Assembly (NCBI RefSeq): GCF_021191635.1
Contig: NZ_JAIWPR010000006.1
Coordinates: forward strand, 1-64,000
Length of the DNA stretch: 64,000 nucleotides
From: Alterluteimonas quercicellularis
GTDB lineage: Bacteria > Pseudomonadota > Gammaproteobacteria > Xanthomonadales > Xanthomonadaceae
Reading direction: 5' to 3'
The position numbers were made by a program, and so were the translations under genes. The notes under the pieces were generated by a model. The model saw only the letters and a program-made list of their open reading frames with translations. It had not been told where the DNA came from and searched no databases. The number at the start of each line of letters is the position of its first letter. The first letter of the stretch is position 1. Of this stretch, positions 31,361 to 39,886 are shown in pieces.

Positions 31361-31954
31361 CTACTCCTGCGCGCCCTCCGGCGCCTGCGTCCCGCCCGCG
31401 TCCCTGCCGCGCTTGCCCGGGCGGGCGTCGCGCCCGCTGCGGTCGCGCGCCGGGGCCAGCCCCAGCGCCGCCCAGTCCGGCACCAGGCGCGCCTTGTCGA
31501 TGTTGTCGAACGCCACCCGCAGCGGCTGGCCGTCGACCTCGAACGCGATCGTCGCGTCCTCGACGCCGACGATGCGCCCGGTCAGGCGACGGCGCCCGTC
31601 CTGCGGCAGCTTCAGCCCGACCTTCGCGGTCTCGCCGGCGAAGCGCGCGAACTGGGCCGGCGCGAACAGCGGGCGGTCGATGCCCGGCGAGGACACCTCC
31701 AGCGTGTAGTGCCCGCTGATCGGGTCCTCCACGTCGAGCAGCGCGGAGACCTCGCGGCTGACCGCCTCGCAGTCGTCGATGGTCACGCCCCGGCCCTCGG
31801 CCTCCGCCGACGCCTCGGCGCCCGGCCGGTCGATGTACAGGCGCAGCACCGCGCTGCCCGGCGTGGGCAGGTACTCCGCGCCGAGCAGCTCGAGCCCCAG
31901 CGCTTCCACGGTGGGGGTCAACAGTTCGGTGATTCGGGTCGCCTTGTCGGCCAC
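31361..31954 (-). CDS. rimP: Ribosome maturation factor RimP
   Basis: RimP is needed for 30S maturation. The protein shows [21 protein letters not shown], the central [22 protein letters not shown] and the [10 protein letters not shown] motif, followed by an Sm-like domain ending [15 protein letters not shown] Lys/Arg/Gly-rich tail of about 40 residues is lineage-specific. Start GTG 31954 (VADKATRI) was chosen because GGAG lies 8 nt upstream and relatives begin at this point; an ATG at 32011 would add 19 unrelated residues. It opens the rimP-nusA-infB cluster downstream of the initiator tRNA. Confidence 0.95.
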
Positions 31955-32002
31955 GACGTACTCCGGCTCTGAATGCTGGTCTCGATGAAAAGGCCACCCC
32001 GA

Positions 32003-32032
32003 AAAAGCCAAGGGGCCCGGTGGGCCCCTTGT
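32003..32032 (-). terminator. Terminator between initiator tRNA gene and rimP
   Basis: Arms CAAGGGGCCC and GGGCCCCTTG with a 3-base loop (32010-32032) are followed on the minus strand by GGCTTTTTCG. It would end most tRNA transcripts and allow some read-through into rimP-nusA-infB, as in the metY-rimP arrangement of enteric bacteria. Confidence 0.9.
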
Positions 32033-32150
32033 CCGATGACGCTGGATTTCGGTGTCGGGACACGGAGCAACGTGTCTTCGACTCAGCCCGATCGCGGCCG
32101 GTACCGCCGAAAAGCGCCTTGTGGAAGGCGCCTCGCCGGCCGCGAAAAGC

Positions 32151-32227
32151 TGGTAGCGGGGGCAGGATTTGAACCTGCGACCTTCGGGTTATGAGCCCGA
32201 CGAGCTGCCAGACTGCTCCACCCCGCA
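32151..32227 (-). tRNA. Initiator tRNA-fMet (CAT anticodon)
   Basis: The 77 nt cloverleaf with encoded CCA shows the initiator hallmarks: three consecutive G-C pairs in the anticodon stem (GGG-CTCATAA-CCC), an A11-U24 pair in the D stem, and no Watson-Crick pair at 1-72 (U1 opposite U72 here, where E. coli has C1-A72). Its position upstream of rimP-nusA-infB matches metY in enteric bacteria. A promoter lies directly upstream and a terminator downstream. Confidence 0.97.
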
Positions 32228-32238
32228 GCAGGAGTGGA

Positions 32239-32267
32239 ATTATGACGGACGCGGTTTCCGATTGCAA
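32239..32267 (-). promoter_or_regulatory. Promoter of the initiator tRNA gene
   Basis: Minus strand TTGCAA (32267-32262), 17 bp, CATAAT (32244-32239), ending 11 bp before the mature tRNA 5' end. This is one of the best sigma70 matches in the window. Confidence 0.85.
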
Positions 32268-32324
32268 CCCGATGCGCAACGCGAACGCCAGGGAACGCGT
32301 CGCGCCCGCGCCCCCGCGATCCGC

Positions 32325-33545
32325 CTAGGGCACGACGGTCAGCGCCCGCGCGGACAGCAGCCACTGCAGCAGCGGACCGGCCTGCGGCCAGGCGTCGCGG
32401 GCCTCGCCGGCCGCCACCGTGTCGCCGGCGTTGAGCCGCCGCAGCAGCCCGGCCAGGGCGTCGCCCGGGTCCTCGACCCTGCGCACGTGGCCGCAGGCGC
32501 CGCACAGCGCCCCGCCGTCGTCGCGGACCCAGGCGATCGGGAAGCGCGCATCGCGCAGGCGCAGGCCGTCGCCGTCGGCGGGCATGGGCGTCGATGCGAG
32601 CGGCGGCGGCGGCGCGAACCCGGCCCCGGTCAGCAGCTGGAGATGCAGGGCGAGCATCCCGGAACGCAGGCGGTCGGCCCGCAGCTGCGAGCGCACGTCG
32701 TCCAGCGCTGCGGCCATCGCCGGCGGCAGGCCGTCGCCGGGCGCGGCGAACATGGAGGCTGCAGCCGATCCGCCGTCCGGCGCCGTCGCGGGCGGGAGCA
32801 GCGACATCATGCCGTCCAGGTCGTAGGCCAGCCGGTGCTCGTGGCGCGGGATGCCGACGTTGACGCTGGTGGCGTGGCCGTCGCCTGCGGTCTCGCCGAC
32901 GTGGTAGTAGTCGGACGGCCAGTAGAGAACGTCGCCCGGCGCCATGTCGATCGCGAACGAGGCGTCGAGGTACTGCGCGTAGTCGACCCGCGTCGCGACC
33001 GCTTCGGTCCACGGCCGCTGCGACCAGAACCGCATCCGCTTGCGCCCCTGCAGCACGAACAGGAAGGTCGCGAAGCGGTCCTTGTGCACGCCCACCGGCG
33101 TGCGCTCGTAGTTGCCGTGGAACAGCGTGCTGATGGCGCCGCTGCCGGGCACGCCGACGCGTTCCCAGAGCCCGTGGAAGAACCGGCGCCCGGCGTCCCA
33201 GACACCGTAACCGTGGCGATGCAGGGTGTTGACGATCAACGCGTAGTCGCAGGGCGCGCCGGCGCGCTGCCGCACGCGGCGCGCGTAGGCGTCGAAGTCC
33301 GCATCCCCGGGCCCCGGCAGCCAGGGCTGCAGCTGGGTCAGCTGGCGGCCGTCGAGCACGAAGCGCACCCGCTGCTCGCGTTCCTCCGGGGTGGGCCTGG
33401 CGCGCGCGACCGCGCGCAGGACGGCGTCGGGCGGATAGGCCGGCTCGCCGAGCCCGCGGAACACCACCGGCCCGCGGTCCCACCAGGTGCGGACGAAGCG
33501 ATCCCAGTCCAGCGCCGTTTCCTCGGCATAGCGTGGATCGCTCAT
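32325..33545 (-). CDS. JmjC/cupin-type Fe(II)/2-oxoglutarate oxygenase of RiPP locus 2 (iron ligands intact)
   Basis: The 406-residue protein has the double-stranded beta-helix of JmjC/Cupin_4 hydroxylases. The ligands are visible: His154 and Asp156 in VGVHKDRFATF and His215 in DYYHVGE, with FLFVLQGRKRMRFW and APGDVLYWPSDYYH between. A C-terminal region (about 330-406) contains CGACGH and helices like a winged-helix dimerisation domain. It is predicted to hydroxylate an amino-acid side chain, here most plausibly in the precursors encoded at 37306-38002. It is the last gene of the cluster; its start overlaps the LanM-like gene (ATGA at 33545-33542). Its paralogue at 35994-37232 has lost the ligands. 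Confidence 0.8.
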   Translation of the reverse strand: MSDPRYAEETALDWDRFVRTWWDRGPVVFRGLGEPAYPPDAVLRAVARARPTPEEREQRVRFVLDGRQLTQLQPWLPGPGDADFDAYARRVRQRAGAPCDYALIVNTLHRHGYGVWDAGRRFFHGLWERVGVPGSGAISTLFHGNYERTPVGVHKDRFATFLFVLQGRKRMRFWSQRPWTEAVATRVDYAQYLDASFAIDMAPGDVLYWPSDYYHVGETAGDGHATSVNVGIPRHEHRLAYDLDGMMSLLPPATAPDGGSAAASMFAAPGDGLPPAMAAALDDVRSQLRADRLRSGMLALHLQLLTGAGFAPPPPLASTPMPADGDGLRLRDARFPIAWVRDDGGALCGACGHVRRVEDPGDALAGLLRRLNAGDTVAAGEARDAWPQAGPLLQWLLSARALTVVP

Positions 33546-36007
33546 GGCATGCGCGCTCCGTAGACTCGCTCCAGGGTGCGCCGGTACTCGCCCAGCGGGC
33601 CCAGCCCCATGCGCCGGCGGCGCGCGTCGACCGCGCCCGGCGCTTCGAGCGGGTACGGTTCCAGGCGTCCCCGGCGCTTCCTGAACTTGGTGCCGTAGCG
33701 TTGCCGGCGTCCCGCGTTGACGCTCACCGCGTCGGCCAGGTAGGCGACCTCGCGCCAGGGCACCTCCCCCAGCGCCGCGGCGGCGCGCATCTCGCGCAGA
33801 CAGCGCCGCTGGAACGCCAGCGCCCCGGGGCCGGCGTGCTGCGCCAGCCGCGAGGCGGCACCGCCGGCCTCGCGCCCGACCATCGCCTCGCTCGGCCACC
33901 CGTGGGCATCGAGCACGTCCTCGAGCCAGGCCAGCGCGGCGGCGGTCAGCGCCTGCAGCTGACGCCCGGCTTCGCGGTCGCGGAAGCCGCCGGCGGCCCA
34001 GGCCGCGCGCAGCGGCGCATCGGCGCGCTGGATCCGCAGCAGCCGCGCGGCCACCGCGCGCTGACGCGGCCTGGCCGGCGGCAGCGGCTCGGCTTCGACC
34101 CGGATCCGGCGGCGGTCCCAGGAGAAGGTGACCCGGCGTCCCGCCGCGTTCCAGTCGAAGCTCGCGCTGCCCGTGCGTTCATCCCGGATCCGCAGGTCGA
34201 CGCCGAGCGCGGGATCGCGCAGGCGCAGGCCGTCGGCGTCGCGCAGCACCTCCGGCCACTGCGCCAGTTGCGGATGAACATGGGCGATGGCGTCCTGCAT
34301 CGGCACGGCCAGCGCGACGAAGCCGAGGTTGCGTCCCTCGAGCAGCATCGCGGGGTTCGGCAACAGCGTGGGTTCCTCCACGTGCTGCGGTCCCGCTTCA
34401 CGGAGGTCGAGACAGCCAGGGCCGTCCAGCCACTGCAGGGCGCCGCCGTCGGCCGGGGTGAAGAAGTACGGCACGTCGCCGCGCGCCAGCTGCGCGCGCT
34501 CCTCCGCGCTGAAGCGCGACCGCGACCGCGGTCGTCTCGCGCCGCCGGACGGCGGCAGCCGCCGCTCCAGTTCCTGCGCGTAGGTGGCGCTGTACTTGAC
34601 CAGCGCCCTGACCCGCCCGCCGCGCAGGTCGCGTCGCAGCCGCGCGAGCAGCCGTTCGCGGTGCAGTCCGATGCGGGTCCACAGGTCGAACATGCCGCGC
34701 AGCATCGGCAGCAGGTAGGCCGCGTAGCCGGCATTGCCCAGCGTGTCGGCCACAAGCGTTCGGGTCTCCCGTCGTGCCCAGGACGCGGCCACCCGGCGCA
34801 GGCGCAGGCCGCCGCCGGGCGCGGCGAAGAATGCCGTCGCGGGGCCCTCCGCCTCGTCCGCGCGGAGTTCCGCAGGGAACCCCGGATGCGCGCGGCCGCG
34901 GTGCGCCGCCGGCTCGACCAGGCCGGTGCCGCTGAGCCGCTGCAACGGACAGGCGAACACCTCCAGGTCGACGATGTAGGGCAGCGGGCCGGCGGCGCCG
35001 CGCCGGCGCCCGGCCAGCAGGTTGCCGTCGCCCAGGTCGGTGACGCCGAAGGCGTAGCAGGCGGCCGCCAGCGCACCGCCCGATCGCCAGTAGGTGGCCG
35101 CCTCGCGCGGGGTCAGGCACGGCGCCTCGACGCATCGCGTCCCGGCATGCAGCGTGGTCCGGCGCTTCGGCGGCTCGATCCACTCCTGCCAGCTGTAGGT
35201 CCGGCGATCGCGGCCGCGGCCGCGCCACACGCGCAGCGTCGGCAGCCGCACCGGCCCCGAGGCTTCGGGCAGGTCGTTGAGCCATTCGAAGATCGAGGCG
35301 TCGCTGCCGGCGGCCAGGAAGATGCGCTCGCCGTCGACCGGCCTGGGCTTGTAGGCGATGCGGCGCCCGCCGCGCATGCGCAGGCACAGCACGCGCTGGC
35401 GGCCGTTGTGGGTCTCGGACGGCGCCGCCCAGAGCGCGGAGACCGGGCCCTCGACCTCGCCGCCGAAGGCGCCGCCGCGCAGGTCGCGCCGCAGGCGCGC
35501 GGCGAAGCGCTCGAAGAACGCGCGGAAATCCTCCCAGGCCCGGCGCACCTCGTCCGCGCAGCCGTCGCCGCCGATCGCGCAGCGCACGAACGCGCCGCCG
35601 ACCAGCGGCGCGAACAGCTCGGCGTTGCGCGGACGGAGCAGCCCGCGGCGGAACAGGTCGCCATGGGCGTCCTCCCGCTGCCGGCACCAAGTCCCCAGCC
35701 CCTCCACCATTTCGATCCAAGGCCGGAACGCCGGTCGCGACAGCGCTGCGGAGATCGCCTGCGCGTCCTGCGCACCGCCGAGCGTGCGCACGGCCTCGGT
35801 CAGGCCGTCGGGCCCCATGCGCGCCACGCAGGGGAACAGCGCCCCGCCGCGTCCCCGCCGGAGATCGCGCACCAGCGCGGCGGTCTCCGGCGGCAGCACC
35901 GTCGCCCGGCCGGCGCGGCCGGCCGCCGGCAACCGCAGCAGTTCCGCGCCGGCGCCGGCATGGGCGTCCACCGTCGGGCGCCGCGCCGTCCGCTCAGCCT
36001 CGCGCAT
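33542..36007 (-). CDS. LanM-type dehydratase domain (DUF4135) fused to a DUF6624-like domain, no cyclase
   Basis: The 821-residue protein carries class II lanthipeptide dehydratase landmarks: SETHNGRQRV (197-206, family (G)DTHNGGRxV), IAYKPR (217-222), the TDL-x-x-x-N catalytic segment as TDLGDGN (323-329), IVDLE (345-349), RALVKYSATY (467-476, family RxxxRxTxxY) and LARGDVPYF (507-515). The His of the usual TDLHxEN motif is Gly here, and the elimination-site Arg and Thr read Lys and Ser. There is no LanC zinc-binding cyclase. Residues 695-810 instead match the DUF6624 pattern (HGWPSEAMVGREAG, LAQHA, YLADAVSVNAG, QRYGTKF, VDARRRRMGLGPLGEY). ATG 36007 overlaps the upstream gene by 14 bp. It probably acts on the three small peptides; the chemistry is unproven. 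Confidence 0.8.
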   Translation of the reverse strand: MREAERTARRPTVDAHAGAGAELLRLPAAGRAGRATVLPPETAALVRDLRRGRGGALFPCVARMGPDGLTEAVRTLGGAQDAQAISAALSRPAFRPWIEMVEGLGTWCRQREDAHGDLFRRGLLRPRNAELFAPLVGGAFVRCAIGGDGCADEVRRAWEDFRAFFERFAARLRRDLRGGAFGGEVEGPVSALWAAPSETHNGRQRVLCLRMRGGRRIAYKPRPVDGERIFLAAGSDASIFEWLNDLPEASGPVRLPTLRVWRGRGRDRRTYSWQEWIEPPKRRTTLHAGTRCVEAPCLTPREAATYWRSGGALAAACYAFGVTDLGDGNLLAGRRRGAAGPLPYIVDLEVFACPLQRLSGTGLVEPAAHRGRAHPGFPAELRADEAEGPATAFFAAPGGGLRLRRVAASWARRETRTLVADTLGNAGYAAYLLPMLRGMFDLWTRIGLHRERLLARLRRDLRGGRVRALVKYSATYAQELERRLPPSGGARRPRSRSRFSAEERAQLARGDVPYFFTPADGGALQWLDGPGCLDLREAGPQHVEEPTLLPNPAMLLEGRNLGFVALAVPMQDAIAHVHPQLAQWPEVLRDADGLRLRDPALGVDLRIRDERTGSASFDWNAAGRRVTFSWDRRRIRVEAEPLPPARPRQRAVAARLLRIQRADAPLRAAWAAGGFRDREAGRQLQALTAAALAWLEDVLDAHGWPSEAMVGREAGGAASRLAQHAGPGALAFQRRCLREMRAAAALGEVPWREVAYLADAVSVNAGRRQRYGTKFRKRRGRLEPYPLEAPGAVDARRRRMGLGPLGEYRRTLERVYGARMP

Positions 36008-37232
36008 CGGCCTCGCTCCGGCCCGCCGGCGCTTCGCGCGCCCGGTCGAGCGCCACGCCGCGCGCGGCGTGCAAGCGGTCCAGCGCCACGCGCAGCGCCG
36101 GATCGGGATCGGGCGCGCCGCACAGGTCGGCGACCCGGTGCGTGCCGCCGGCTTCGAGGCGATGCCGCATGGCGTCGGCGCCGGCCGAGGCGGGCACGCC
36201 CAGGGCATGGCCGTTGACCGCCCACACCGCCATCCCCTCGCCCACGGGCATGACCGCGATGCGGGCGCCCGGCGCCATGCGGATGCAGTCCTCGTCCCGC
36301 AGCGGGGGCGGCCGGCCGCGCGGCGGCGCCGGCTCCAGCGCACAGGCGCTGCGCCGGCTCGCCCACCTCACCTGCAGCGCGGTCTCCAGGTCCTGGCCGG
36401 ACGCGAACGCCGAGAGTTCGCAGACCAGGCGCTGCAGCGGCGCCGGCAGGCCGGTGCCGCCGTCGGCCTCGCGCGCGGGCTCGACGGGAAAGGCCGGCGT
36501 GTCTCCGTCGGGATACAGCACCGGCTGCAGCATGCCGATCGCCAGGTCGCGCACTTCGTCCGCCAGCGCAGCGGGCGCCTGCGGCACGCTCAGCTGCAGC
36601 GCCAGCGCGTCCTCACTGCGTTCGCGCGCGCGCCAGCCGGCGGGCCAGTAGATCAACTGGCCGGGGCCGGCGGACCAGTCGCGCACCGCACCACCGTCCG
36701 CACCGGGCGGTGCGATCCGTACCCGCACCTCGCCGTCCAGCGGCAGCAGCAGGACCGATGCGTCGACCGCCCGCTCGCGGACGTAGCGGCCCAGCGTCAG
36801 CGATGCTGCAATCGGCTGCAGCGGGCAACCCACGCGGTCCCACAGGTCCTGCAGGAAGCCGCGGACGGCGGCCCAGGCGGCCGGATCGGCCACCAGCGGC
36901 TGCTCGATCTCGAGCCAGGGGGCACAAGGGCGCAGCCGCGCGTCCAGCCGCTGCAGGTAGTCGCGGATCGCGACGTCGCCGTCGTCGGGCAGCAGGTCGC
37001 CCGGGGCGCGGATGTCGGCGTCGCCGACATGGAATCGAAGCGCAGGCAGCATGAAGAAGCGCATGCCCGCCCGGAACGGCCGGGCGATTTCCCTGACCAG
37101 GCGGAAGGCGTGGTCGGCGTCCAGGGGCGCTGCGCCGAGCGCCGCACGGGCCGGCGTGCGCGCCCAGTGCTGCGCGACGAAGCGGTCCCAGTCGTGCGCC
37201 GGGATCTGCCCCGGCTCGCGGTCCATCGCCAT
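35994..37232 (-). CDS. Pseudo-JmjC (cupin-fold) protein of RiPP locus 2, iron ligands missing
   Basis: The 412-residue paralogue of the JmjC protein at 32325-33545 shares DWDRFVAQHW near the start, FLQDLWDRVG, LTLGRYVRERAVDASVLLLPLDGEVRVRI and GPGQLIYWPAGW. At the positions of the two first ligands the His and Asp are Arg154 and Val156, and the distal His is Ala202, so Fe(II) should not bind in the usual way. A peptide-binding or scaffold role is a reasonable guess. ATG 37232 (GGAGG 11 nt upstream) lies 73 bp after the last precursor gene. The C-terminal 190 residues are divergent and rich in Ala/Arg/Pro. Confidence 0.7.
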   Translation of the reverse strand: MAMDREPGQIPAHDWDRFVAQHWARTPARAALGAAPLDADHAFRLVREIARPFRAGMRFFMLPALRFHVGDADIRAPGDLLPDDGDVAIRDYLQRLDARLRPCAPWLEIEQPLVADPAAWAAVRGFLQDLWDRVGCPLQPIAASLTLGRYVRERAVDASVLLLPLDGEVRVRIAPPGADGGAVRDWSAGPGQLIYWPAGWRARERSEDALALQLSVPQAPAALADEVRDLAIGMLQPVLYPDGDTPAFPVEPAREADGGTGLPAPLQRLVCELSAFASGQDLETALQVRWASRRSACALEPAPPRGRPPPLRDEDCIRMAPGARIAVMPVGEGMAVWAVNGHALGVPASAGADAMRHRLEAGGTHRVADLCGAPDPDPALRVALDRLHAARGVALDRAREAPAGRSEADARG

Positions 37233-37305
37233 TGGCTCGTGTTCCTCCGGCGGTCCGGAACGGTGGCGCCCGCTCGCGGTACCGTGGGCGGGCGCCGGCG
37301 TCCGC

Positions 37306-37488
37306 TCAGGGGGCGCAGTACAGCCAGCGGGTGCAGGTGGCCTGCGGGGCATCGCCCCCGTTGTCCAGCGCGGTACCCTGCGCGGCCGCGCGCTCCGCCT
37401 GCCCGATCAGGCGCTCCAGCTCGGCGCCGCGATCGGCGCGGGCCTCGGCGTGGCCTGCGTTCCTGCTGCCGATTCGAACCTTTTCCAT
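37306..37488 (-). CDS. RiPP locus 2 precursor C (60 residues)
   Basis: Starts MEKVRIGSRN, with a helical leader LERLIGQAER, then GTALDNGGDAPQATC and a C-terminal TC-TRWLY-C-AP. It shares the order MxKV, (L/E)-x-LIGQ-x-E, GTALD, APQ(A/S)TC and YC with the two precursors upstream. Thr51-Cys52 and Cys58 form a TC-x5-C unit. It is the precursor nearest the modification genes, 73 bp before the pseudo-JmjC gene. An AAGGAGAAC ribosome site precedes ATG 37488. Function as a modified-peptide precursor is inferred from size, paralogy and neighbours. Confidence 0.82.
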   Translation of the reverse strand: MEKVRIGSRNAGHAEARADRGAELERLIGQAERAAAQGTALDNGGDAPQATCTRWLYCAP

Positions 37489-37559
37489 CGTGTTCTCCTT
37501 GAACGAAGCGGCCGCCCGGAACGCCGGATGCGGGCATCCGGGCGGCCGATGACGCGGGT

Positions 37560-37745
37560 TCAGACGCAGTAGATGAAGCGGGAACAGGTGGCCTGCGGCG
37601 CCTGTCCGCGGGTGTCCAGCGCGGTCCCGGCGGGAGACGACGCGCGCTGCTCCACCTGCCCGATGAGGCGGTCGAGCTTGGCGCCGGCGTCGGCATTGCG
37701 GTCGCGACCGCGGATGTTGTCCTTGCTGATCCGGACCTTGTCCAT
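37560..37745 (-). CDS. RiPP locus 2 precursor B (61 residues)
   Basis: MDKVRISKDN start, LDRLIGQVEQR helix, GTALDTRGQAPQATC and terminal TC-SRFIY-C-V. A GAAGGAGAA ribosome site precedes ATG 37745. Relative to its neighbours the leader is conserved in charge pattern while the five residues between the two Cys vary (SRFIY), as expected for a diversified core. No double-glycine cleavage site is shared by all three peptides, so a C39 peptidase of the type at 16482 is not the obvious protease. Confidence 0.82.
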   Translation of the reverse strand: MDKVRISKDNIRGRDRNADAGAKLDRLIGQVEQRASSPAGTALDTRGQAPQATCSRFIYCV

Positions 37746-37822
37746 TTTCCTTCTCCTTCGATTGGGTCGGGTGCCCGGCGGCCACGGCGGGGCCTGACGG
37801 CCGGGCATGTGCGTCGTGCGGT

Positions 37823-38002
37823 TCAGAAGCAGTAGATGCGACCGAGACAGGTGGACTGCGGCGCGGCGCCCTGGTTGTCCAGCGCGGTGCCGTGCGGGCT
37901 GCGCTGCTCCATCTGTCCGATCAGCTGATCGAGCCTGTCGCTCCGATCGGTCCCGCCGGCATGGCGCGGGACGTGTTCCTTGCTTGCCTTGACCTTTTCC
38001 AT
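37823..38002 (-). CDS. RiPP locus 2 precursor A (59 residues)
   Basis: First gene of the minus-strand cluster. It reads MEKVKASKEH, LDQLIGQMEQR, GTALDNQGAAPQSTC and terminal TC-LGRIY-C-F, with a strong AAGGAGG ribosome site before ATG 38002. Like the other two it has exactly two Cys, five residues apart, the first preceded by Thr. Three tandem precursors with 71-77 bp gaps suggest duplication followed by divergence of the x5 segment and the last one or two residues. A promoter candidate lies at 38109-38136. Confidence 0.82.
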   Translation of the reverse strand: MEKVKASKEHVPRHAGGTDRSDRLDQLIGQMEQRSPHGTALDNQGAAPQSTCLGRIYCF

Positions 38003-38108
38003 GATCGCCTCCTTGTTGGGATGGGTGACTCCCGGGGCGGCCCGGCCTGGCCGGACGATCCGGGCGGTACGGCCGCCCCGCCCCGCCGCTTCCGACGGGC
38101 ATTTCCGG

Positions 38109-38136
38109 ATTAGCACGGTCCGTTCCGCGTGTGCAA
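38109..38136 (-). promoter_or_regulatory. Putative promoter of RiPP locus 2
   Basis: Minus strand TTGCAC (38136-38131), 16 bp, GCTAAT (38114-38109). Transcription would begin about 100 nt before the first precursor ATG at 38002. The -35 hexamer is the same as at the toxin-antitoxin promoter. Confidence 0.5.
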
Positions 38137-38422
38137 ATGAACGCGCCGGGCAAAGTGGCGAGCCATGATGCGGGTCACAGGGAATGTGCGATGCAGCCGG
38201 CGACATGGCCGGCGCGCGCGCCAACGAGAGGAACGAGGCGACCGAGGCGCGCTGCAACACCGGGATACAGCCGACGATGCGGACGTCCACGGCACATGGG
38301 GCGCCGACACGACGGCGCTGGATCCCCCGTGCGATCGTCGACCGGTGGTGCGGCACAGGCCGCCTGGGCGCGCCCCGAGGGCGGCCCTCCGCGGGCGCCC
38401 GCCTGGCGCTATGCGGCGGCCG
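38137..38422. other. Intergenic region between nuoN and RiPP locus 2
   Basis: No gene recognised. A GC-rich imperfect hairpin (about 38366-38405) lies just after the nuoN stop and could terminate the nuo operon, but it lacks a U tract. The rest has no repeats or RNA signature that I can support. Confidence 0.45.
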
Positions 38423-39886
38423 TCAGCCCGCGAACGCCTGCTGGCACCAGGCCATCACCGGGCTCCAGAACAGGCCCAGGCCCAGCAGCGCCAGCGCGTT
38501 GACCACGAACACCGCGCGCAGCGGGCCGCCGCGCGGGCGCACCGGCTCGCCGACCGGCTCGTCGAAGTACATGACCTTGATGACGCGCAGGTAGTAGTAG
38601 GCGCCGATCACCGCGCAGACGATGCCCACGATCGCCAGCCACAGCAGGTCGCCCTCGACCGCGGCGCGCAGCACCGCGAGCTTCGCCCAGAAGCCCAGGA
38701 ACGGCGGCACGCCGGCCAGCGAGGCCATCGTCACCATCACCAGGAACGCCATCCACGGGTGGCGGGCGTTCAGGCCCTTGAAGTCCTCGATGCGGTCGGC
38801 CTCGAAGCCGCGCCGCGACAGCATCACGATGGCGCCGAAGGACGCGGCCGACATCAGCGCGTAGCTGATCGCGTAGAACATGGCGGCCGCGAAGCCGTCG
38901 GCGCCGCCGCCCGCGATGCCGAGGAACAGGAAGCCGACGTGCGAGACCGTCGAGTAGGCGAGCATGCGCTTGAGGTTGGTCTGCGCCAGCGCGACCACGT
39001 TGCCGATCACCAGCGACAGCGCCGCCAGCGCCGCGATCAGCAGCTGCCAGTACTCCTGCAGCGGCGCCAGCCCCCCGTCGAACAGGCGGAAGGCCATGCC
39101 GAACGCGGCCAGCTTGGGCGCGGAGCCGATGAAGATGGTGATCGGGGTCGGCGCGCCGTGGTAGGTGTCGGGCAGCCACATGTGGAACGGCGCCGCGCCG
39201 AACTTGAACGCCACGCCGACCACCACGAACACCAGGCCGGTCAGCAGCAGGGTGCGGTCCTCCCCGGCGGCCGCGGCCGCGGCGGCGCGGACGCCGTCGA
39301 GGTCCAGGGTGCCGGTGGCGCCGTAGACCAGCGACATGCCGTACAGCAGCAGGCCCGAGGCCAGCGAGCCCAGCACGAAGTACTTCATGCCGGCCTCGGA
39401 GGCCAGCGGGCTGTCGCGGTCGATGGCCACCAGCGCGTAGGAGCACAGCGCCAGCAGTTCGAGGCCCAGGTAGACCATGGTCAGGTTGCCGGCCGAGACC
39501 AGCAGCATCATGCCCACCGTCGCGAACAGCATCAGCACGGGGATCTCGCCGCGGTACAGGTCGCGCTCGCGCAGGTAGGACCAGCTGTAGGCCATCGCGA
39601 TCGCCGACACCGCGAGCACCGAGAACTTCAGCACGTCGGACACCACGTCGCGCTCGAACAGGCCCTCCATCACCACGCCGTGCCCGCCCACGCCGCCGGC
39701 CACGAGCCCCGCCGCCACCAGCAGGGTCGCGATGGCCAGGGCCTGGGTGAGGATGCGGCGCCGGTCGTCGAGGAACAGGTCCAGCATCAGCAGCGCGAAC
39801 GCGCCAAAGACCACCGCGAGCTCGGGCACGAGCGGCGCGAACTCCGCGAGGGTGCGGACGGGGGGCGTCATGGCGGCGACGGTCAT
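38423..39886 (-). CDS. nuoN: NADH-quinone oxidoreductase subunit N
   Basis: One of three antiporter-like membrane subunits of complex I that pump protons. The 487 residues form about 14 helices, with the conserved charged helix in VFVVVGVAFKFGAAPFHMWLPDTY and GSAPKLAAFGMAFRLF, followed by LKRMLAYSTVSHVGF. It is the last gene of the 14-gene operon, 13 bp after nuoM. ATG 39886 is used; a second in-frame Met follows five codons later. Confidence 0.97.
   Translation of the reverse strand: MTVAAMTPPVRTLAEFAPLVPELAVVFGAFALLMLDLFLDDRRRILTQALAIATLLVAAGLVAGGVGGHGVVMEGLFERDVVSDVLKFSVLAVSAIAMAYSWSYLRERDLYRGEIPVLMLFATVGMMLLVSAGNLTMVYLGLELLALCSYALVAIDRDSPLASEAGMKYFVLGSLASGLLLYGMSLVYGATGTLDLDGVRAAAAAAAGEDRTLLLTGLVFVVVGVAFKFGAAPFHMWLPDTYHGAPTPITIFIGSAPKLAAFGMAFRLFDGGLAPLQEYWQLLIAALAALSLVIGNVVALAQTNLKRMLAYSTVSHVGFLFLGIAGGGADGFAAAMFYAISYALMSAASFGAIVMLSRRGFEADRIEDFKGLNARHPWMAFLVMVTMASLAGVPPFLGFWAKLAVLRAAVEGDLLWLAIVGIVCAVIGAYYYLRVIKVMYFDEPVGEPVRPRGGPLRAVFVVNALALLGLGLFWSPVMAWCQQAFAG

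Follow-up and report, generated by a model that had tools for sequence, protein, structure and literature searches.

What do three short peptide genes and three enzyme genes, lying side by side in a member of the Xanthomonadaceae, make together? The genes occupy positions 32325..38136 of a 64,000-nucleotide stretch of Alterluteimonas quercicellularis (GCF_021191635.1, contig NZ_JAIWPR010000006.1, positions 1-64,000), which we refer to as the window. An earlier sequence-only reading had proposed a system for ribosomally synthesised and post-translationally modified peptides (RiPPs), built from precursors with a TC-x5-C motif, a LanM-like dehydratase fused to DUF6624 and a pair of JmjC proteins, one active and one inactive. 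Our analysis indicates that this cassette very probably yields small peptides that have been chemically remodelled. Its best explanation, to which we give about even odds, is a RiPP pathway related to the class II lanthipeptides in which dehydration, ring closure and tyrosine oxidation would be combined.

The precursor peptides and their conserved core

Precursor peptide 1 (37823..38002, minus strand) is 59 residues long and combines the leader stretch LDQLIGQMEQ with an [ST]C..YC tail, its core ending in STCLGRIYCF. Precursor peptide 2 (37560..37745, minus strand; 61 residues, core end ATCSRFIYCV) and precursor peptide 3 (37306..37488, minus strand; 60 residues, core end ATCTRWLYCAP) are 51% and 44% identical to it, respectively. 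In a set of 40 loci the pattern [ST]C-x(1-8)-YC-x(0-4)-end, which was shaped on those very loci, matched 54 of 10,764 open reading frames (ORFs). All 54 fell within the zone of 715 ORFs upstream of the LanM-like gene beside the cassette, as against 0 of the 10,049 other ORFs, and each of the 40 loci had at least one matching peptide. Four further loci, fetched afterwards through the LanM-like gene, each carried a pattern peptide as well (4/4). Looking for LanM-like homologues without such peptides beside them therefore returned none among 44 loci chosen by the LanM-like gene (40 + 4).

Across 58 peptides, the residue before the first Cys is Thr in 39 and Ser in 19, and the two Cys are separated by four residues in 34, five in 18, six in 3 and seven in 3. 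The three seven-residue spacings arise because those cores hold two [ST]C, of which the leftmost was counted; the nearer one gives four. The TC-x5-C motif thus describes the three window peptides but is too narrow for their relatives, in which 4 to 6 residues separate the nearest [ST]C from the last YC and Ser may take the place of Thr. The last Cys is preceded by a conserved Tyr. The invariance of this Tyr in the 54 peptides is by construction, because the pattern demands it; a looser scan without the Tyr requirement recovered the same upstream peptides, plus many unrelated ORFs elsewhere. A strict expression for the leader motif matched 45 of the 58 peptides, and a similar stretch could be seen by eye in 11 of the 13 misses, the other two, both from Lysobacter, showing no similar leader stretch by eye.

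We consider this Tyr a likelier site of oxidation than those suggested before, the second Cys or another residue. Arg was rejected as the oxidation target because it is missing from many cores, for example TCAGVYCC and TCIGWYCV.

A LanM-type dehydratase fused to DUF6624

The LanM-like protein (33542..36007, minus strand; 821 residues) fuses a dehydratase (about residues 37-636) to DUF6624 (about 647-816) and has no LanC domain. Pfam matched DUF4135 (5.7e-21) and DUF6624 (PF20329; residues 656-819, 4.6e-13, 49.5 bits against a cut-off of 27) and gave no LANC_like match, in agreement with the domain assignment of the sequence-only reading. The NCBIfam LanM model scored 44 bits against a cut-off of 304. 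A DUF4135 dehydratase domain with the LanM fold is present, the fold comparison covering mainly residues 147-580; sequence profiles of the whole protein and of DUF6624 alone gave 0 matches each in the PDB.

We evaluated active-site residues in 31 LanM-like, 26 active JmjC and 28 inactive JmjC proteins picked from about 40 loci after exclusion of broken or truncated proteins (among the LanM-like proteins, for example, those of L053, L061, L063 and L076) and some near-duplicates. CylM numbering was assigned from motif and spacing in alignment to the LanMs of the window's own genome, not to CylM itself. At the elimination positions D252, H254 and R506, all 31 LanM-like proteins have Glu for Asp, His and Arg, respectively, and at T512 there are 29 Thr and 2 Ser. 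Four of the five kinase positions K274, D347, H349, N352 and D364 are kept in 31/31. The protein was rejected as an ordinary LanM because its LanC half and the kinase His are missing. A viral origin was also rejected, as the LanM-like protein had no relative in a scan of viral contigs. The window's own genome has three further DUF4135 proteins (L001, L002 and L003), of which L001 and L002 resemble full-length LanMs; L002 and L003, with identical scores near contig ends, represent a repeat or redundant contigs.

The invariant residues of DUF6624 are common to seven free-standing members of the family. Of 398 genomes in the window's order, 69 gave a match to the LanM-like query; in five it was full-length and in the others it was confined to the DUF6624 part, showing that DUF6624 is common there as a separate protein. 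Several of these free-standing proteins (L018, L019, L028 and others) have signal-like N-termini by eye, and some occur in neighbouring copies. Excerpts of one study suggest that the domain may represent an undiscovered class of biosynthetic enzymes (PMC13097080).

A separate LanC gene in one branch of the family

In one branch of cassettes, the YCC branch, the cores end in GT[AS]CG[ST]C-x3-YCC. Here all 19 loci with sequence at that place have a LanC gene after the JmjC gene. The two LanC proteins compared with Pfam match LANC_like at 3.4e-47 and 1.5e-45 and carry the WCYG and CHG motifs. With two LanC sequences of the YCC branch as queries, which a distant LanC elsewhere may escape, no LanC was found in 16/16 two-Cys loci with downstream sequence; five of the 40 loci (L054, L063, L065, L075 and L076) offered no usable downstream sequence, and at L068 the best LanC-matching piece was only 141 residues. 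The four later loci comprised one YCC locus with LanC and three two-Cys loci without it. In the tree the YCC branch forms one group, which a split with a support of 1.000 separates from the rest. The earlier statement that LanC is absent accordingly stands for the LanM-like protein but not for the YCC branch, where a separate gene is present, and this attached gene ties the cassette to thioether chemistry.

An active JmjC oxygenase and its inactive partner

The downstream JmjC_2 oxygenase (32325..33545, minus strand; 406 residues) has an intact H154-x-D156...H215 and matches JmjC_2 (PF08007) at 3.9e-09, with 36.5 bits against a cut-off of 22. The upstream pseudo-JmjC protein (35994..37232, minus strand; 412 residues) has lost the metal-binding HxD and gave no Pfam match. 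A profile comparison shows that the two families are homologous over nearly their full length (probability 100, E 5e-42). H154-x-D156 and H215 are kept in 26/26 active proteins; HxD is kept in 0/28 of the inactive partners and the later His in 13/28, which bears out the active and inactive pair recognised before. The pair profile gave weak matches in the PDB to NO66, MINA and the L16 arginine hydroxylase (E 8e-05 to 1.4e-03). That the two genes flank the dehydratase gene is true of Luteimonas only; in other hosts both come after it.

In one Luteimonas genome the pseudo-JmjC gene was matched in two frames (L137:1094-2250), through a frame change or an assembly error. Three other loci (L118, L119 and L120) have JmjC pairs at about 6.3-9.0 kb (L119 on the reverse strand) in which HxD is absent from both members, and lack a LanM-like gene; they are perhaps decayed or reused copies.

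Gene layout, distribution and insertion site

Between nuoN and a tRNA-Met gene, the six genes share one direction, on the minus strand, and come in the order three precursor-like peptides, pseudo-JmjC, LanM-like, JmjC_2; all six ORFs are open. The LanM-like ATG at 36007 gives a 14-base overlap with the pseudo-JmjC gene, the JmjC_2 and LanM-like genes overlap by 4 bases, and a purine-rich ribosome-binding stretch lies before each precursor ORF. The cluster of three 59-61 residue peptides and three larger overlapping or close genes is thus as first described. The promoter candidate reported with it found no support: a sigma-70-like scan of 31900-38500 gave a single match, at 32267-32239 before the tRNA, and none before precursor 1.

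Of the 398 genomes of the window's order, 5 (its own included) hold full-length LanM-like relatives, as do 15 of 391 genomes of the Streptomyces order and 1 of 299 genomes of the phylum, this being the window's own. A pattern-based scan of species genomes gave at least 38 loci, in Luteimonas, Lysobacter, Streptomyces, Kitasatospora, Nonomuraea, Sphaerisporangium and Plantactinospora and in metagenome assemblies of Catenulispora and Nocardiopsaceae. All three enzymes are present in 35/38, the remaining three running out at contig ends; with a peptide at 44/44 loci, the families do co-occur as anticipated. Two further Luteimonas loci (L136 and L137) carry the genes of all three enzymes, L137 with the two-frame pseudo-JmjC; having been chosen by precursor match, they are informative on the enzymes and not on the peptides. 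Across 25 loci the three enzymes give concordant pairwise distances (r 0.984-0.989, Mantel 0/2000), which would fit a cassette travelling as a unit.

Fifteen Luteimonas nuoN loci were fetched from 21 genomes. A tRNA-Met lies close after nuoN in 11, and the remaining four, the window included, have precursors in place of the close tRNA-Met. The Luteimonas cassette therefore occupies a site that is empty elsewhere, as an insertion between nuoN and tRNA-Met. In the window the tRNA-Met gene (32151..32227, minus strand) forms the downstream edge of the insertion and stands outside the pathway. In Plantactinospora the cassette is followed by a gene for an FAD-NAD(P)-binding protein (PF13454; L069:13196-15022), a possible extra tailoring enzyme.

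A proposed pathway and its alternatives

From these features we infer a pathway whose chemical steps, target residues and product activity, like the roles of DUF6624 and the pseudo-JmjC protein, are conditional. The leader, with its [LIV]IG[DEQ][LM]E-like stretch, would be bound by the enzymes. The LanM-type domain would then, with good probability given its fold and conserved active site, phosphorylate the Ser/Thr before the first Cys and eliminate the phosphate to give dehydroalanine or dehydrobutyrine. We see an even chance that the Cys of YC adds to this residue, forming a methyllanthionine-type ring of about 7-9 residues; since no LanC was found in two-Cys members, closure may be guided by DUF6624 or spontaneous. 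In the YCC branch the separate LanC would close further rings. Somewhat short of even is the proposal that the JmjC protein, with pseudo-JmjC as a partner or leader-binding subunit, oxidises the Tyr beside the last Cys, most simply by beta-hydroxylation. Leader removal and export would fall to genes outside the cassette. A bolder form of this pathway, which we hold only tentatively, is a new RiPP class in which DUF6624 replaces LanC in ring closure or substrate orientation and the JmjC pair oxidises or cross-links Tyr, the product being a compact Tyr-containing thioether macrocycle.

Several observations weigh against a lanthipeptide-like pathway. Lanthionine sites usually lie some residues from the Cys, and a Ser/Thr adjoining Cys is unusual. 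No peptidase or transporter was found inside the cassette, and Tyr as the JmjC target is a prediction. Because the YCC branch is a single group, its association with LanC amounts to about one evolutionary event, and the correlated enzyme distances also mirror shared host descent. The first alternative is dehydration without lanthionine formation, which we judge to have roughly one chance in four: the dehydro residue would stay, the two Cys would form a disulfide after export, the JmjC protein would hydroxylate Tyr or a neighbour, and DUF6624 would only bind. The 16 two-Cys loci without a detected LanC suit this explanation, as do the two conserved Cys, and CcaM, a DUF4135 enzyme of the dehydrazole type, is described in excerpts of its report as dehydrating without making lanthionine (PMC10676384). 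It fits poorly, however, with the LanC gene attached in the YCC branch, which points to thioether chemistry.

It is unlikely, though conceivable, that the JmjC protein cross-links the first Cys to an oxidised Tyr, yielding a peptide with two bridges, a thioether from Ser/Thr to the last Cys and a second from Tyr to the first Cys. No other role is obvious for the first Cys, which occurs with Tyr in 54/54 peptides (by construction of the pattern, although the Tyr-free scan gave the same peptides), whereas the RiPP JmjC/cupin enzymes BipG (PMC12707348) and PbsQ (PMC12257519) hydroxylate, according to the parts of those reports consulted. Less probable still is that the main chemistry falls to the JmjC pair, with the LanM-like protein acting as a peptide kinase or as a scaffold that binds the leader. 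The position of CylM His349 is Gly, Ile or Phe in 31/31 and never His, so that the kinase step may differ; this counts against the lanthipeptide-like pathway and speaks for a changed role, but the four elimination positions are kept or conservatively replaced. JmjC pairs without LanM point the same way. In the Streptomyces order the partner profile found 20/391 genomes, namely the 15 LanM genomes, 2 weak single matches and 3 others, and these 3/391 have a JmjC pair with neither a LanM-like gene nor a matching precursor in the fetched 15 kb. The second JmjC of these pairs lacks HxD, however, and an active oxygenase is therefore seen only with the LanM-like protein.

If the lanthipeptide-like pathway is correct, LanM dehydration would be separated from LanC cyclisation in nature, DUF6624 would gain a testable role, and a peptide pathway would couple a JmjC oxygenase to a paralogue that is inactive. 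For mining, the core motif offers a simple and specific marker, the YCC branch provides a natural comparison with and without LanC, and the cassette is small enough to be rebuilt in E. coli.

Comparison with known systems

In agreement with the sequence-only reading, text searches of open papers, a scope that most subscription papers fall outside, found no characterised pathway with this combination. Like the LanMs CylM and LicM2, the cassette protein has the DUF4135 kinase/lyase fold over about residues 37-636, most catalytic residues and Ser/Thr/Cys cores. Unlike them, it has DUF6624 instead of the LanC half and has lost the kinase His, and the cassette adds a two-Cys core, a Ser/Thr adjoining Cys and a JmjC pair. 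The ribosomal oxygenases YcfD/RoxA, NO66 and MINA53 modify ribosomal proteins; they are of similar length and resemble the JmjC proteins through the weak profile matches, whereas in the cassette the JmjC genes accompany precursor peptides, and one member of the pair is inactive.

CcaM, the dehydrazole LanMbC of carnazolamide, is likewise a divergent DUF4135 dehydratase outside the ordinary LanMs. As excerpted, however, it has a fused class III cyclase and needs azoles made by YcaO (PMC10676384), whereas the cassette protein has no LANC_like match and no YcaO is found among the six genes between nuoN and tRNA-Met. BipG and PbsQ, the JmjC hydroxylases of biphenomycin-type RiPPs, also place a JmjC/cupin oxygenase in a RiPP pathway. 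In the portions of the reports consulted they act on ornithine beside multinuclear non-haem iron-dependent oxidative and radical S-adenosylmethionine enzymes; the cassette instead has a LanM-type enzyme, a pseudo-JmjC protein and cores without a conserved Arg. Finally, graspetide clusters of groups 18, 20, 23 and 42 share with the cassette a DUF6624 beside RiPP genes; in excerpts of that study it appears there as a co-occurring protein (PMC13097080), whereas in the cassette it is fused to the dehydratase.

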